From Candidatus Komeilibacteria bacterium CG11_big_fil_rev_8_21_14_0_20_36_20 (GTDB lineage: Bacteria > Patescibacteriota > Patescibacteriia > UBA1558 > GWA2-36-10), in contig PCWQ01000006.1 of NCBI GenBank assembly GCA_002787405.1, positions 1-52,139 of the forward strand: DNA of 52,139 bases, read 5' to 3'. Position numbers and translations under genes: made by a program. Positions 21,203-40,940 of this stretch are shown piece by piece. The notes under the pieces are model-generated. The model was not told the origin of the DNA. It saw only the letters and a list, made by a program, of their open reading frames with translations, and did no database searches. Positions within the stretch are counted from its first letter, which is position 1, and the number at the start of each line of letters is the position of its first letter.

Positions 21203-22474
21203 ATGCCAAGTAAAATAAAAAAAATAAGCGCTTTAGAAATTTTAGACTCTCGTGGCAATCCGACAATAGAGGTTACGGTTGAGTTAACTAATAAAATGAC
21301 CGCCACGGCGGCCGTGCCTTCCGGCGCTTCTACTGGTCGCTTTGAGGCCTGTGAATTACGAGATAATAATCGATTTCGTTACCAGGGTAAAGGAGTATTA
21401 AAGGCCGTAGAAAACGTTAATAAGATTTTAAATAAAGAATTAAACGGTCTACAAACCACGGAACAAAAGAAGATTGACGAATTGATGATAGAAATAGACG
21501 GCACCAAAAATAAGAGCCGTTTAGGAGCTAATGCTATTTTAGGTGTTTCTTTGGCAGTGGCCAAGGCGGCTGCTCAGATAACTGGTTTGCCTTTGTATGA
21601 ATATTTACGCAATTTGTATGAGCCAAAGTTAAAAAAATTTAATTTGCCCACCCCAGTAGTAAATGTTATTAATGGCGGCCGGCACGCTGATACTAATATC
21701 AATCTTCAGGAATTTTGGATAGCGCCCATCAGAGCCGAGACTTTTGCCGATAAATTAAGGCAAGCTAGCGAAATCTTTCACAAATTAGGAGACTTGCTTC
21801 AGGCCACCGGTCTGGATACGGATTTAGGCAATGAAGGCGGCTATGCGCCTGATTTCAAATCACATCATCAGGTTTTGGGTTTCTTGCAGCAGGCCGTGGA
21901 AAATAGTGGTTATAAGCCCGGTCAAGACATTGTTTTTGGTCTTGATGCCGGTGCTTCAGAATTATACAATGAGACCAAGGGGATTTATAAACTTGATTTA
22001 GAGCAGGAAGAATTTCAAGCCGAGGAGTTGATGGATTATTATTTGGATTTGATGGCCATTTATCCTTTGCAGTTTTTGGAAGATCCTTTTGCCGAAGATG
22101 ATTGGCCGGCTTGGCAGCAGTTTACCAAGGATCAATACGTTGTTTCCCATCAGATTAAAGTGATCGGTGATGATTTATTTGTGACTAAAGAGGAGAGATT
22201 AAAAAAGGGGATTGATTTGAGCGCAGCTAATGCTATTATTATTAAGCCGAATCAAGTGGGTACTCTAACCGAAACTTTAGCTACTGTTCGCTTGGCTCAG
22301 CAAAATAAATATAAAATTATTGTTTCACATCGCAGCGGTGAGACATCTGATACAACTATTGCCGATTTAGCGGTGGCTGTTGATGCGGAATATATTAAGA
22401 CTGGTTCTACGGCGCGAGGAGAGAGGATTGCCAAGTATAACCGTTTGTTAAACATTGAAGAAAAAATTAAATGA
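21203..22474 (+). CDS. eno: Enolase
   Basis: The 423-residue enzyme interconverts 2-phosphoglycerate and phosphoenolpyruvate. It has SGASTGRFEACELRD (lid loop), NGGRHADTNINLQEF (catalytic His), GLDAGASE (metal Asp), LEDPFAEDDW (metal Glu), IGDDLFVT (metal Asp), KPNQVGT (catalytic Lys), SHRSGETSD and YIKTGSTARGERIAKYNRLL. All expected residues are present. It starts 70 bases after pgk and overlaps the next gene by four bases (ATGA), so it is tightly coupled to gpmI. Confidence 0.97.
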   Translation: MPSKIKKISALEILDSRGNPTIEVTVELTNKMTATAAVPSGASTGRFEACELRDNNRFRYQGKGVLKAVENVNKILNKELNGLQTTEQKKIDELMIEIDGTKNKSRLGANAILGVSLAVAKAAAQITGLPLYEYLRNLYEPKLKKFNLPTPVVNVINGGRHADTNINLQEFWIAPIRAETFADKLRQASEIFHKLGDLLQATGLDTDLGNEGGYAPDFKSHHQVLGFLQQAVENSGYKPGQDIVFGLDAGASELYNETKGIYKLDLEQEEFQAEELMDYYLDLMAIYPLQFLEDPFAEDDWPAWQQFTKDQYVVSHQIKVIGDDLFVTKEERLKKGIDLSAANAIIIKPNQVGTLTETLATVRLAQQNKYKIIVSHRSGETSDTTIADLAVAVDAEYIKTGSTARGERIAKYNRLLNIEEKIK

Positions 22475-24105
22475 CAATAAAGAAAAAAACTACCCGCCCG
22501 TCACCTAAGGTCATTCAGCGAGATGTTGCGGATAAAGAAAAAGTTATAAAAAAAGGACATTTGCCTTTAGTTTTGATTATTTTGGATGGTTGGGGTTTGA
22601 GTAAAATTAAGGAAGGTAACGCCATTGCTTTGGCTAAAACGCCGATTATGGATGGCTTGTATAAGAAATATCCTAATACTCAACTGGGCGCTTTTGGGCG
22701 GCATGTTGGTCTATCGGCTGATCAGCCCGGTAATTCTGAAGCAGGGCATATGAATATTGGAGCTGGTCGGGTAGTTGAACAGGATACGATGGTAATTTCT
22801 CGGAGTATTAGTAATGGCACGTTTTTTAAAAATCCAGCTTTTTTGCAGGCAGCCCAGCATGCTATTAAAAATAATTCCGATATTCATTTGATGGGTTTAT
22901 TGTCTGATGGTCGTAGCCCTCATTCTGATAACGACCACTTGATAGCTTTAATTAACTTTTTCCTTTCCAAAACCAAACAAAATATTTTTATCCATCTTTT
23001 TACGGATGGACGCGACAGCGCCATGTTTACGGCTTTGAAAATTTTAAACAGGAATAAAATTATTTTTAATAATCAGCGGGTAAAAATTGCCAGTGTCATG
23101 GGTCGGTTTTATGCCATGGATCGTCGGCGTGCTTGGAGCCGTACCCAGAAAGCGTACGAAGCCATGGTCTTAGGTAAGGGCTTGGCTGTGCCCAACGCTA
23201 TTGAAGCAATTAATCAGGCCTATAATCGTGGAGAGAGCGATGAATTTATTCCACCTTCTATTATAGTTAACGAAAAGAAAAAACCAGTGGGAATGATTGC
23301 TTGTAATGATGCAGTTGTCTTCTTTAATTTAAGATCTGACCGTGCTAGACAACTGTGCAAATCTTTTGTACAGAAAAATTTTATTAAAGATAATCCAGGC
23401 GCTTTTAAAAGAACTAAGATGGTAGATAATCTGCTCTTTGTAGCTTTGACTGATTTTGGTCCAGATCTAGATAATATTATCACCGCTTATCCAGGTATTG
23501 ATGTACCCGACACTTTAGTTCATACTTTGCGAGATTGGCGGCAAGTTTATATTGCTGAAACAGAGAAGTATGCTCATATGACTTATTTTTTTAATGGTGG
23601 CTATGATCATCCAGTAGCTGGAGAGACTCGAATTAATATTCCGTCGGTGGAGGTTGACTCTTATGACAAGAAGCCGGCGATGAGCACCAGAGCTGTTATG
23701 CAACAGGTGTTGGATTATATTAAAGATGATCGGTTTGATTTTGTGGCTATCAATTTTGCCAGTCCGGACATGATCGGTCATACTGGTAATTTAGAAGCGG
23801 CTGTCAAAGCAGTGCAAATTGTTGATCAAGCGGTGGGGCGTATCGTCAAAGCAGTTTTATCCAGACAGGGGACGGTGCTAATTACTGCTGATCACGGCAA
23901 TGTCGAAGAAATGATTAATGTTGAGACTGGCGAAATTATCACTCGACACTCCAGTAATTTTGTTCCTTTTGTCATGGTTAGTCGTCATCATAATTTTAAA
24001 TTAAAAAAGAATGGAGAATTGGCTAATATTGCTCCGACGATTCTGGATTTGTTTCAAATCAACAAACCTTCTTCAATGAGCAGCCAGTCTTTAATTGATC
24101 AATAA
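22471..24105 (+). CDS. gpmI: 2,3-bisphosphoglycerate-independent phosphoglycerate mutase, copy 1
   Basis: The 544-residue enzyme converts 3- to 2-phosphoglycerate with two Mn ions. The phosphatase-fold metal motifs are present: LIILDGWG, the nucleophile Ser in GNSEAGHMN, FTDGRDS, GRFYAMDRR, NFASPDMIGHTG and ITADHGNVEE. It has about 30 extra basic residues at the N-terminus before the usual start (KKKTTRPSPKVIQRD). It overlaps the end of eno and is followed after 12 bases by a second full copy. Confidence 0.95.
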   Translation: MTIKKKTTRPSPKVIQRDVADKEKVIKKGHLPLVLIILDGWGLSKIKEGNAIALAKTPIMDGLYKKYPNTQLGAFGRHVGLSADQPGNSEAGHMNIGAGRVVEQDTMVISRSISNGTFFKNPAFLQAAQHAIKNNSDIHLMGLLSDGRSPHSDNDHLIALINFFLSKTKQNIFIHLFTDGRDSAMFTALKILNRNKIIFNNQRVKIASVMGRFYAMDRRRAWSRTQKAYEAMVLGKGLAVPNAIEAINQAYNRGESDEFIPPSIIVNEKKKPVGMIACNDAVVFFNLRSDRARQLCKSFVQKNFIKDNPGAFKRTKMVDNLLFVALTDFGPDLDNIITAYPGIDVPDTLVHTLRDWRQVYIAETEKYAHMTYFFNGGYDHPVAGETRINIPSVEVDSYDKKPAMSTRAVMQQVLDYIKDDRFDFVAINFASPDMIGHTGNLEAAVKAVQIVDQAVGRIVKAVLSRQGTVLITADHGNVEEMINVETGEIITRHSSNFVPFVMVSRHHNFKLKKNGELANIAPTILDLFQINKPSSMSSQSLIDQ

Positions 24106-24117
24106 AGATAAAAATCA

Positions 24118-25695
24118 ATGCGCAGACCTAAACCAGTAGTTTTAATAATTTTAGATGGCTTTGGTATTGCTCCGCCTTCGCGGGCCAATGCTATTTCCAT
24201 GGCTAGAACTCCTAATTTTGATAAATATGCTTCTAATTATCCGGTCATGCCGTTGGCCTCTTCTGGAGAAGCGGTTGGTTTGTCATGGGGCGAGATGGGA
24301 AATTCAGAGGTGGGTCATATTTCACTGGGTTCGGGGCTGATTCCTTATCAGAATTTGCCGCGAATTACTAAAGCCATTGTTGATGGGGATTTTTTTGAAA
24401 ATAAATCATTTCTCAAAGCTTGTCAGTATGCCAAAAAAAATAACAGTTCTTTGCATTTGATAGGTTTGGTTAGTTCCGGAGGAATTCACAGCTACAATGA
24501 GCATCTTTACGCTTTGGTTGAGTTGGCTCATCAACAGAAAGTTGACAAGTTGTATATTCATGCTTTTCTGGATGGTCGTGATACTCCTCACAATAGCGGT
24601 TTGAATTTTATTATTAAATTGCAGGATCATTTGAAAAAAATCGGTTTAGGTAGCATTGCCACTTTGTCTGGTCGTTTTTGGGCCATGGATCGGGATAACC
24701 GCTGGGAGCGAACGGAAAGGGCCTATCAGGCGCTTGTTAATGGTCTATCTGATGAAAAATTTGATGATCCGCTCAAAGCGATTGAGAGCTCTTACAAAAA
24801 AGAAGTTTATGACGAGGAGTTTGCGCCAATCGTTATTACCGATGATTTGGGTAATCCGCGGGGGAAAATTAGTGACGGCGATGCAGTAATTTTTTTCAAT
24901 TTTAGAGGCGATCGAGCTAGGCAATTGACTAAAGCTTTGACTTTACCTGGTTTTGAAAAATTTAAGCGGGAGTATTATCAGAATTTGTTAATGGTTATTA
25001 TGACTGAATACGAAAAAGATTTGCCGGTAGAAGTAGCTTTTCCTCCTTTATCAATTGAAGTTCCTTTAGCTAGTGTTATTTCTAAAGCTGGTTTAAAGCA
25101 ACTGCATATTGCTGAAACAGAGAAATACGCTCATGTTACTTATTTTTTTAACGGCGGACAGGAGAAGATTTTTGCAGGAGAGGAAAGAGCTTTAGTGCCT
25201 TCTCCTTCAATTTCGTCTTATGATCAAAAGCCGGCCATGTCAGCTCGTGAAATAACTAATAAATTAACACAAGCGATTAAAGAGAATTTGTATGATTTTA
25301 TTGTAGTTAATTTTGCCAATCCAGATATGGTTGGGCATACCGGCAATATGGAAGCGACTATTGAATCTGTTGAGATTATTGATCAATTAGTAGGTAATAT
25401 CGTTGATGTGGTTTTATCCTATGATGGAGCAGTTTTAATCACAGCTGATCATGGCAATGCGGAAAATTTGTATGATTTGCAAACCGGCGTGTTAAATAAA
25501 GAGCATACCAATAATTCTGTTCCTTTATTTATTATTGGGCAGGATTTTGCCGGTAAGAGCGTTTTAAGTGGGGCTTCCGATCAAGATTTAAGTCATGTCA
25601 CGCCGGTCGGCGTATTAGCTGATGTCGCTCCCACTATTTTGAAAATAATGGGGCTTAAAAAACCGCCAGAGATGACAGGCAGTTCTTTAATTTAG
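24118..25695 (+). CDS. gpmI: 2,3-bisphosphoglycerate-independent phosphoglycerate mutase, copy 2
   Basis: The 525-residue protein has the same motifs as copy 1: VLIILDGFG, Ser in GNSEVGHIS, FLDGRDTP, GRFWAMDRDNRW, NFANPDMVGHTG, ITADHGNAEN and EHTNNSVP. There is no N-terminal extension. The two differ widely in sequence although both look active, so this is not a very recent duplication. Copy 2 is closer to the bacterial norm (GLSWGEMGNSEVGH). Possible reasons are dosage, different metal use, or a different phosphate ester for one copy. Confidence 0.95.
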   Translation: MRRPKPVVLIILDGFGIAPPSRANAISMARTPNFDKYASNYPVMPLASSGEAVGLSWGEMGNSEVGHISLGSGLIPYQNLPRITKAIVDGDFFENKSFLKACQYAKKNNSSLHLIGLVSSGGIHSYNEHLYALVELAHQQKVDKLYIHAFLDGRDTPHNSGLNFIIKLQDHLKKIGLGSIATLSGRFWAMDRDNRWERTERAYQALVNGLSDEKFDDPLKAIESSYKKEVYDEEFAPIVITDDLGNPRGKISDGDAVIFFNFRGDRARQLTKALTLPGFEKFKREYYQNLLMVIMTEYEKDLPVEVAFPPLSIEVPLASVISKAGLKQLHIAETEKYAHVTYFFNGGQEKIFAGEERALVPSPSISSYDQKPAMSAREITNKLTQAIKENLYDFIVVNFANPDMVGHTGNMEATIESVEIIDQLVGNIVDVVLSYDGAVLITADHGNAENLYDLQTGVLNKEHTNNSVPLFIIGQDFAGKSVLSGASDQDLSHVTPVGVLADVAPTILKIMGLKKPPEMTGSSLI

Positions 25696-30191: not shown

Positions 30192-30264
30192 AAAATACCC
30201 CCTCTTATTCTGTCCCTTGACTTTACTCGGGATAGGATTCCCCCCTAAATGGGGGTATTTTTTT
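30192..30264. terminator. Terminator of rplJ-rplL, possibly bidirectional
   Basis: AAAATACCCCC at 30192 can pair with GGGGGTATTTT at 30251 across a loop that itself contains CCCCCC. The 3' arm runs into seven Ts on the plus strand, and on the minus strand the reverse arm also ends in Ts. It sits between convergent genes. Confidence 0.75.
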
Positions 30265-32374
30265 ATTCATTTATAGCTAGTAAATAAAGGTGATTATTAT
30301 TGAGTAGATAAATTGCTTTTTCTTCAGGATCAATCGCTAAATCATTTAAGTTATCAAATTTGATGGAAGTGTATTGATCTTTAATCTGGCCATCTTTATC
30401 CAGAATGATAATTCTTTTATATTGTGGATCGATAATGTAAAGATAATTAGAATCTTTGAAGGTTTTAATTGTAGCATCGGAACCAATAATTGGATGGGGT
30501 TCATGATAATTAAAAGCATCTTTTTCTCCTTTAAGGAATTTAGTAATGGCGCCATTATTATTAATAATATAAATACTGCCGTCTATGGCTAAACTATTGG
30601 CCTGACTTAAATCAACGGTTTCATTGAGCCAGGCAGAGCCATTGGCGAAACTTTCTCCCCGTTCAGGATATTTAAATATTTGATTATTTTGGGGGTCCAA
30701 AACATAGAGGTTGTTGCTGTAGATAGCTAAATCCTGTACGGAAGTATTGCCGGCTGTTTGGGAAAAATTGAATGTTTCAATTTGCCGGCTGTCAATATTA
30801 AAGATAAAGTATTGATTGTTGTTACCAAGAATTAATTTGTTTGTGTTGGGCCAATCAGCTAAAAATTTTCCATCAGCAAAGTCAATTAACGCTTTAAGCT
30901 GATCATTTTCTAAAACATAAAGTTGATTATTACCTAAAATGTAAAACTTATTATCCTTTTGGACAATTTGCTTGGCATTTTCCAAAACAGAACTTAAGTC
31001 AAATATTTCCACTGGTGAGGGCACGACATAGATATGACGCACTTTGTTTAATTGTTGCCAGACTTGGTCTTTAATCACATCAACCTCCTTTTGCTGTTCA
31101 GCTGAGTGGATAATTAATTTTTCAATAATTTGATTAATCTCTAAGAGTAGATTTTCAGCCGCTTGTTCGTCATTGTAAATTAGTTTTGATTCGGCTTCCG
31201 TAAATTTTATGTTGATCTCCTGAATAGAGTTATAATAATCAACATCTTTTTGTTTTTCACTCCTTTTTTGCGTTAAAAAGACCAAAGTTTGCATAAAAAC
31301 CAAGAATATTATCAATAGTCCAATTAGGGCGATTTTCTTTTTTAAATTTAGACGGCTGAACCAATTATATTTACGGCTGGCCGTGGTGGTAATGCGGTCT
31401 ATGGTTTTTACCTCTTTTTTATGGCGATATTGATTGGAGGCCAGAAATAGGAAACCATCTTTGACTCTCTGCCAGATAAAGACCACTACTTTTTTAATGA
31501 TCACAAAAAATAGTTTAGTAGAGCTGACTAAACCTTGAAATTTTTTAAGGAAGTTTACATTTTTAAAGGCCTTTAGATCAATAACCCATTTAGTACGCGG
31601 CACATTTGTGCCTCGTTTTGTTTGTTTATTGGAAGTTTGTTTTTGTGAATCACTAATATCCTGGACTGAAGTTTCCGTTTCACTGTTTATTTTTTCTTCT
31701 TTTAATTCAGCATCTAGGCCGTTTGATTTTTTAATGATTAAAGAATTTAAAGTGACAAAGTCTGGTACAGTTTCCAGTAGCTGTTTGATTTTTATAACCG
31801 CCGAAGGAGGAGAGTAGCGTTTAACTAGCTGTTTGATTTTTTCTTTAGAAATATAATCAAAAAGAGAATTGGTAGAAATAATCAAAACATCACCCTGATC
31901 CAATTGACCGCTGATAATATCTGAAAATAGTTTAGTAAGGTTGATTTCGTTATTTTTGGAAATAATAGTAGTGAATTGGTTGCTGTGTAACAAGAGGGCG
32001 TTGATATTGCCAATACTGGAAATATAAATATTATCTTCATAAATCATGCCGATAGCTAAATCAATGTTGGCTAGCCAGTTTTTTATTTTAGGGGAGGTGT
32101 TTAATTCTGGTAAAAGCTGATTAATTTTTTGCAGCACCTCTTCTAAAATTAATTCCGGATCGTTGGTCTGGCTGTTTTGTGCTTCATAGAAGTAGGTGGT
32201 AGCTTCATCAATAATTTGGTCAATTAGCGGCTGTTGGTCAATCTTTGTTTTAAGAGACTCAAAAATAATGAATAACTGGCCTTTTTCAGAGGCATCACTA
32301 GTATAAGACTCTGAAAATACGCGTGAGTTAAGATGATCATGTATGAATAATTTGTGGTATTTAAGATCCATCAA
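30263..32374 (-). CDS. Membrane protein: degenerate PP2C-like domain plus beta-propeller
   Basis: The protein has 703 residues. Residues 1-215 resemble a PPM/PP2C phosphatase: NIDLAIGMIYEDNIYISSIGNINALLL and GDVLIISTNSLFDYIS match its central strands, but the metal-binding Asp motifs are absent. A basic linker follows, then one membrane helix at about 347-370 (KKIALIGLLIIFLVFMQTLVFL). A coiled segment (about 380-440) comes next, then about six propeller-like repeats of the 'NLYVLDPQNNQIFKYP' type to the end. So a cytoplasmic pseudophosphatase may be coupled to an outside propeller. The start could be either of two adjacent ATGs. Confidence 0.65.
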   Translation of the reverse strand: MMDLKYHKLFIHDHLNSRVFSESYTSDASEKGQLFIIFESLKTKIDQQPLIDQIIDEATTYFYEAQNSQTNDPELILEEVLQKINQLLPELNTSPKIKNWLANIDLAIGMIYEDNIYISSIGNINALLLHSNQFTTIISKNNEINLTKLFSDIISGQLDQGDVLIISTNSLFDYISKEKIKQLVKRYSPPSAVIKIKQLLETVPDFVTLNSLIIKKSNGLDAELKEEKINSETETSVQDISDSQKQTSNKQTKRGTNVPRTKWVIDLKAFKNVNFLKKFQGLVSSTKLFFVIIKKVVVFIWQRVKDGFLFLASNQYRHKKEVKTIDRITTTASRKYNWFSRLNLKKKIALIGLLIIFLVFMQTLVFLTQKRSEKQKDVDYYNSIQEINIKFTEAESKLIYNDEQAAENLLLEINQIIEKLIIHSAEQQKEVDVIKDQVWQQLNKVRHIYVVPSPVEIFDLSSVLENAKQIVQKDNKFYILGNNQLYVLENDQLKALIDFADGKFLADWPNTNKLILGNNNQYFIFNIDSRQIETFNFSQTAGNTSVQDLAIYSNNLYVLDPQNNQIFKYPERGESFANGSAWLNETVDLSQANSLAIDGSIYIINNNGAITKFLKGEKDAFNYHEPHPIIGSDATIKTFKDSNYLYIIDPQYKRIIILDKDGQIKDQYTSIKFDNLNDLAIDPEEKAIYLLNNNHLYLLAINE

Positions 32375-39597: not shown

Positions 39598-40014
39598 ATG
39601 GTCAAAAAATCACATTATCAGAAATTAGCTCTAATCTTAATTGTTGTTTTCTTTGTCAGTGTTTGGCTGGAGCCGAGGTTTTTAAAAGATATTCCTTTGA
39701 TGTTTTCCGGCAATGATCCCTATGGCTTGGTCATTTCTTTCGGTCTGCTTAGTCTATTGGTGTTAGCTATTTTGTATTTGTTTTTTGGGGCTGGAACATT
39801 TTCCATCAATCGGGCTAGTAATTTATCGGTTAAATTTTGCTATGTGGCTTTAGCTTCCGGTGCTCTAATACCTTTGTTAGTCTTATTACTTTTTGTCTTA
39901 AGTCAAACTGGAGACTCGATGGGGTTGTTGTTAATTCTACCGTTTATTTATTTGGCTGGTATTTTTGCAGTTGTTTCGTTAATTTTATCCATTATTTCTA
40001 TTTTAAAAAAATAA
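39598..40014 (+). CDS. Small polytopic membrane protein, unknown
   Basis: The 138-residue protein has about four hydrophobic helices (residues 8-26, 44-64, 78-103, 110-136) and a short loop with NRASNLSVK. No family recognised. A -10-like TATAAT sits in front (ttTTATAATtag at about 39571). No partner is evident. Confidence 0.65.
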   Translation: MVKKSHYQKLALILIVVFFVSVWLEPRFLKDIPLMFSGNDPYGLVISFGLLSLLVLAILYLFFGAGTFSINRASNLSVKFCYVALASGALIPLLVLLLFVLSQTGDSMGLLLILPFIYLAGIFAVVSLILSIISILKK

Positions 40015-40044
40015 AACCCCCTGCCTAAATTAATAGAACAGGGG
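40015..40044 (-). terminator. Terminator of the porin-like gene
   Basis: On the minus strand CCCCTG / CAGGGG pairs around a 15-base loop and is followed by GTTTTATTTTTTT. It overlaps the end of the convergent membrane-protein gene. Confidence 0.7.
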
Positions 40045-40065
40045 ATCAACCAAGGAGGTTTGAGT

Positions 40066-40863
40066 TTAGTTGAAGGCGAAGTTTACTTCGCCGATTATTT
40101 TTTCATCTCGTGTTTCGTAGAAACACTTGATAAAACAATCCGTGGAAAATTCGTGGTTAATACCGAATAACCAAGAATCTTTTGTGTCGCCAAAATCATA
40201 TTGGCCATACAGCCGATTGTTGTAGGGTAATTGTACGTAGTTCTGGATGAAGAATAGATTGCCCAGTGCATCGTCACAACTCATTCCGCCCATATAGGGG
40301 TGGAGTAATCTGGTGGTCCAAGGACTTTCAAACATACCACCCAGACAGGTATTTTTTTCCCAAAATCCGGATAGACCGTAAAAGGTGAGAGCAAATGAAG
40401 AAGAATTATGGTTAAAATGAGTGGCTCGACCCGTAAAGTTTCCTTTTTTATACCAGATAGAAGTCCCGGTAGAATAAAGAGTATGGTGGTCTAACATATC
40501 TGGCCATCGAGTCAACCTCAGATTTTTTGGTCCTGGGTACAGGCAAGCGACGCTGTTGGGATGGATACCCACCACTAATGACACGGTGCCTTGCCATAAT
40601 GATTTATCAAACTGTCCGTAGGCCCATTTCACTATTGCAGAATTGATGTCAAACTCAAATTTAGTTTTGACGGTGCCGTTTTCTAAGAGTTGTGCAGTGG
40701 TTACTCCTACGCGAGCTCGTTGTATCTGATATTCATCACCGTCTTCGGTCGGTATATTTATTGAAATATAACCATACGGTGAAAGATTGAGATCTTGAGC
40801 TATGATCGGCGAAGCCGCAACGAGAATCATGAGAATTATAAAGAAAGTAATAGATTTGTGCAT
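40066..40863 (-). CDS. Porin-like outer-membrane beta-barrel protein
   Basis: The protein has 265 residues from the second of two adjacent ATGs, which is 6 bases after GGAGG; the first is only 3 bases away. A signal peptide (MHKSITFFIILMILVAASPIIAQ) precedes alternating aromatic strands. YGYISINIP, EYQIQRARVGVTTAQLLENGTVKTKFEFD and WAYGQFDKSLWQGTVSLVVGIHP match the start of phosphate-selective porin O/P proteins. The C-terminal strand ends in Phe-Asn (VNFAFN) rather than terminal Phe. It is shorter than typical OprP-like porins. CPR are thought to lack an outer membrane, so its presence is unexpected. Promoter, ribosome site and terminator are all strong. Confidence 0.65.
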   Translation of the reverse strand: MHKSITFFIILMILVAASPIIAQDLNLSPYGYISINIPTEDGDEYQIQRARVGVTTAQLLENGTVKTKFEFDINSAIVKWAYGQFDKSLWQGTVSLVVGIHPNSVACLYPGPKNLRLTRWPDMLDHHTLYSTGTSIWYKKGNFTGRATHFNHNSSSFALTFYGLSGFWEKNTCLGGMFESPWTTRLLHPYMGGMSCDDALGNLFFIQNYVQLPYNNRLYGQYDFGDTKDSWLFGINHEFSTDCFIKCFYETRDEKIIGEVNFAFN

Positions 40864-40911
40864 CATGCACCTCCTAATTGAGTTTAGTTTTAATTTACAA
40901 AGTAATGGGTA

Positions 40912-40940
40912 AATTTAGCATATTTTTTAAATTTTGTCAA
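40912..40940 (-). promoter_or_regulatory. Promoter of the porin-like gene
   Basis: On the minus strand, TTGACA and TAAATT are 17 bases apart, with a leader of about 40 bases to an AGGAGGTG ribosome site. Confidence 0.8.

Follow-up and report, generated by a model that had tools for sequence, protein, structure and literature searches.

Why would a bacterium that is presumed to have a single membrane encode a porin? Transmembrane porins are the usual sign of an outer membrane, and they normally require the Omp85 assembly machine. Within the window (the whole stretch of DNA that was analyzed, 52,139 nucleotides), a 266-aa open reading frame (ORF) at 40066..40866 on the minus strand, defined by the window translation and by its homologs, had been described as an outer membrane porin-like gene in a presumed monoderm. 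The answer that we favor, with a probability of roughly 40%, is that a monoderm makes a 16-stranded barrel which acts in the outer membrane of a Gram-negative host as a leaky pore. Conserved porin-type barrels in Parcubacteria without Omp85 would either lead to a revised view of the envelope or reveal a nutrient route from Gram-negative hosts.

The signal peptide, consensus promoter, and intrinsic terminator that the initial annotation had assigned to this gene could all be located, and like the ORF they lie on the minus strand. The putative sigma-70-like promoter (40912..40940), identified by consensus match, is TTGACA-17-TAAATT with a TG extension and agrees with the consensus at 10 of 12 positions. 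The spacing of the ribosome-binding site, AGGAGGTG (40868..40875), fits the second ATG (M2, at 40863) better than the first ATG, and M2 is a possible start instead of it. Residues 1 to 23 (40798..40866) constitute a predicted Sec signal peptide, MMHKSITFFIILMILVAASPIIA followed by QD, with a hydrophobic leader and a signal-peptidase-type site that places cleavage before Q-D; most family members have a similar leader. The terminator, a 13-pair stem with a U-tract at ~40005..40047 (z = -3.7), was overlooked by a simple scan, probably because its loop is long.

As judged by sequence comparison, the window protein is a member of a new protein family. It has no convincing match in Pfam, NCBIfam, PHROGs, or the PDB sequences, its relatives have none in Pfam, PHROGs, or the PDB sequences, and plasmid and phage records contained no relative of the family. 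The window protein alone, used as the query, retrieved no relative from sets of genome contigs and viral contigs, presumably because the family is divergent; a whole-genome search did find relatives. In the family-level clade of the window, 9 of 21 genomes contain such a homolog (one of the 9 is the window's own), and most homologs align over nearly their full length with 23 to 31% identity. A profile search at the order level gave homologs in 11 of 36 genomes, and an improved profile at the class level gave homologs in 15 of 381, of which 11 belong to the window's family-level clade, 1 to another family of the order, and 3 to other families of the class. One member from another family of the class is 29% identical to the window protein across 257 residues. 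A sample of 380 genomes from the phylum held just two members, both already known, and the family was otherwise absent from it. About half of the close relatives lack the gene, which is therefore not universally essential. The family tree is mostly unresolved except for two subgroups. One genome (G012) encodes both a second, short family member and a member (L010:1465-2982) whose N terminus is extended by approximately 200 residues; the extension, which may be a stalk, includes a repeated TDQQSLRDAVS segment. A search of open-access papers brought up no account of porins in Parcubacteria.

The claim that the gene is richer in GC than its neighbors was confirmed (0.413 versus 0.349 +/- 0.042), and its codon usage is the most atypical among 37 genes. 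Atypical composition is the point in favor of an assembly chimera or contamination, an explanation that is almost certainly wrong. Eleven genomes of the window's family-level clade carry homologs, and rplU, recR, and dnaB lie close to the family gene in three genomes (the window's, G011, and G012), which refutes a chimera as far as the data go. The surroundings in the window are ordinary bacterial genes, encoding a nitroreductase, a small membrane protein, L21, RecR, DnaB, ArgS, and a P-type ATPase. In a second group the family gene stands beside a CAP/SCP-type gene and in a third group near uvrC; no secretion genes were seen co-located with it. The chimeric contig raised as a concern earlier is rejected because these neighborhoods are shared among genomes. 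The adjoining CAP/SCP-type protein in one subgroup (L029, L030, L032, and L085) has a conserved N-terminal 'NDYHPHSLQFRR' region. Elsewhere in the window are two adjoining genes for BPG-independent phosphoglycerate mutase (22471-25695; 544 and 525 aa) and, on the minus strand at 30263-32374, a 703-aa ORF with no Pfam match.

Raised GC is not peculiar to the family member in the window. In nearly every family member both GC and GC3 exceed those of the neighboring genes (window, 40066-40866; L027-L037 and L081-L085), with a GC3 excess of up to 0.5, and the raised stretch has its borders near the ends of the ORF and is mostly limited to the family gene. In genus g2, for example, the GC3 of the family gene is 0.86 to 0.90 versus 0.33 to 0.44 in neighboring genes. 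This confinement of high GC to the gene, together with the patchy spread of the family, could be taken to mean that a diderm host recently donated the porin gene, which then persisted as a relic or was put to opportunistic use. We consider such a history improbable, however, as no similar sequence was found in plasmids, phages, Pfam, or PDB, the family has diverged to ~20 to 30% identity within Parcubacteria, and the reading frames are open in every member. The single foreign transfer suggested in the initial annotation likewise lacks support, as the family is widespread in the clade and has neighborhoods common within subgroups. That translational selection alone raised the GC was also considered and rejected. 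The codon pattern in the window's own genome is compatible with it by comparison with EF-Tu, but in most member genomes EF-Tu does not show raised G-ending and C-ending codons. The high GC may derive from inter-epibiont transfer, expression selection, or another cause, and the data fit each.

Prediction of the fold depended on the family. AlphaFold gave an uninformative model for the window protein as a single sequence (pLDDT 38). The fold was read from an AlphaFold2 model of a mature homolog (L022, 25% identical to the window protein), made with an alignment of five relatives that included the window protein. The best of five models (pLDDT 47.5 to 71.8) has 16 beta strands at moderate confidence (pLDDT 71.8, pTM 0.66), and by alignment the mature domain of the window protein (40069..40797) is predicted to form the same barrel. 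Even-to-odd connections are mostly two residues and odd-to-even connections mostly longer, which is the turn/loop rhythm of porins. The longest loop, of 27 residues, joins strands 5 and 6 (residues 104 to 130, 40477..40557), the position at which classical porins carry the L3 constriction loop. Most of it has low pLDDT; its conservation exceeds that of every other loop except the 3-residue L8, and it contains a P-G-P...R-W motif in which P is invariant and R nearly so. Conserved charged residues are R52, E71, R120, D224, and D227. In a Foldseek search of the model against the PDB, 16-stranded porins ranked first (R. blastica porin at E 5e-7, OmpF/OmpC, and Veillonella OmpM1; top TM-score, 0.71), and the best match among viral models carries the annotation "Phosphate-selective porin O and P" (E 1e-8, TMq 0.69).

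The alternating beta strands claimed for the window protein are weak when it is taken as a single sequence (z about 1.5) but strong in the family profile, where lag-2 alternation on the Kyte-Doolittle scale reached a z of 4.8 and other window proteins scored about 0 or below; this test is register-free and independent of the structure model. Alternation per strand on the model strands was not significant (p 0.05 to 0.10), and the register of the model is therefore uncertain. In many outer membrane proteins the last residue, following a beta strand, is F or Y, and several homologs likewise have F or Y as the exact terminal residue (TFSF, TFAF, TWSF, SYSF, and NFAY). On inspection of the alignment, the window protein has a beta-signal-like strand, G-E-V-N-F-A-F (40072..40092), followed by one extra N, and one subgroup has several additional residues beyond the F-x-F of the last strand. 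The structure prediction, the alternation, the signal peptide, and the C-terminal aromatic strand together support the porin-like barrel, and on the strength of the family model the window protein is very probably a porin-type barrel of 16 strands. The weak single-sequence and per-strand alternation, the terminal N, and the residues past F-x-F would also suit a secreted protein of porin fold that never crosses a bilayer, such as an S-layer or adhesin component or a protein that carries hydrophobic molecules, for example, host lipids. CPR cells do have surface layers (PMC7906910), yet the family profile alternates strongly and the nearest structures are membrane porins, so that this alternative appears rather unlikely to us.

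A membrane barrel requires a membrane, and the outer membrane markers argue that these cells have no second one. The search for BamA and LptD proposed in the initial annotation found neither in the clade: Omp85 (PF01103), POTRA (PF07244), and LptD profiles, which detect their targets in diderm controls, gave no hit in any of its 21 genomes. The result supports the presumption of a monoderm, in agreement with the named relatives, which are "Candidatus Parcubacteria" and include the MAGs SI039_bin36, SI075_bin20, SURF_51, and BM519, and the marker genes offer nothing in favor of an unusual envelope in this lineage. One of the 380 phylum genomes passed the Omp85 cutoff. At locus L068 of genome G306, an Omp85/BamA gene of Bacteroidetes type by eye is followed by an OmpH/Skp-like gene; the locus is probably Bacteroidetes contamination of the MAG. 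Published data point the same way as the profile searches: ultrasmall groundwater cells show no outer membrane by cryo-transmission electron microscopy and are attached to hosts that look Gram negative (PMC7906910), TonB/ExbBD and PilQ are missing in CPR (PMC6744442), and the type IV secretion system of Patescibacteria belongs to the monoderm type (PMC12102498).

These observations bear on the possibility that the barrel is an ordinary porin in the Parcubacterium's own envelope, placed without BAM either in an unusual outer lipid layer or by spontaneous insertion into the cytoplasmic membrane. The signal peptide and the C-terminal aromatic strand resemble those of self-inserted outer membrane proteins, the atypical GC and codons could signal an abundant surface protein, and mycobacterial pores suggest that BAM-independent insertion is possible. 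Nevertheless, the missing markers and the images of such cells count against an own-envelope porin, and an open 16-strand pore in the only membrane would destroy gradients; we judge it unlikely. The barrel probably acts outside the cell.

Where outside is a more tentative matter. Because a porin-type barrel needs a noncytoplasmic membrane, which these cells seem to lack, the outer membrane of the host is the most economical site, although we give it somewhat less than an even chance. We propose that Sec would export the barrel from a Parcubacterium without Omp85 machinery, that the barrel would work beyond the single membrane of the cell, and that it would be delivered to the Gram-negative host at the contact site and inserted into the host outer membrane. 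There it could serve as an open pore for diffusion, narrowed by an L3-like constriction, and leak nutrients to the epibiont, whose gain would be passive solute uptake. Barrels of diderm pathogens do reach and insert into foreign membranes, for example, PorB in mitochondria (PMC5877877, PMC12757748). Candidate routes are direct insertion, vesicles, or a path through a pilus or secretion system into the host periplasm. Host BAM accepts its substrates from the periplasm, and entry from outside would therefore require another route. The fuller version, in which a monoderm epibiont exports its own porins into the host outer membrane for a nutrient leak, possibly with folding by host BAM, is doubtful.

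Compared with known systems, the family most closely recalls the general 16-stranded porins (R. blastica porin and OmpF/OmpC). It is like them in having a Sec signal and an aromatic C-terminal strand and, in the L022 prediction, 16 strands whose short turns alternate with longer loops, the longest of them between strands 5 and 6, as in the general porin fold. In contrast to these porins, the mature proteins are ~240 to 250 aa with very short loops, sequence similarity is undetectable, and the genomes that encode them lack BAM and other outer membrane markers. Of the attributes of BAM-assembled proteins, the Sec signal and the C-terminal aromatic beta-signal are seen on alignment inspection but Omp85/BamA is not, and LptD, the mark of a lipopolysaccharide-diderm envelope, is absent from all 21 genomes. 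The beginning described as Porin O/P-like is not matched by sequence: hmmscan of 10 members at E values up to 10 gave no match to Porin_O_P (PF07396; OprP/OprO) or any Pfam porin family, and sequence comparison thus gives no support for membership in Porin_O_P. Three megaplasmids examined for Porin_O_P sequences yielded none. By eye, the window protein begins with R-A-R and E-F-D in a manner resembling Porin_O_P. A 16-stranded barrel is predicted for L022, and its best viral structure match bears the annotation of this family.

OmpM of Veillonella (8byt), which appears among the Foldseek matches, is a porin barrel whose phylum consists mostly of monoderms. The outer membrane of the Negativicutes is a true one that includes an Omp85 protein, and OmpM carries a wall-attachment region in addition to its barrel, of which no counterpart was seen in the window protein. 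Neisseria PorB and other mitochondria-targeted barrels share with our proposal the concept of a bacterial barrel in the membrane of another organism. They come from diderms, unlike the window family, and are delivered by vesicles (PMC5877877); the likeness drawn here is one of concept.
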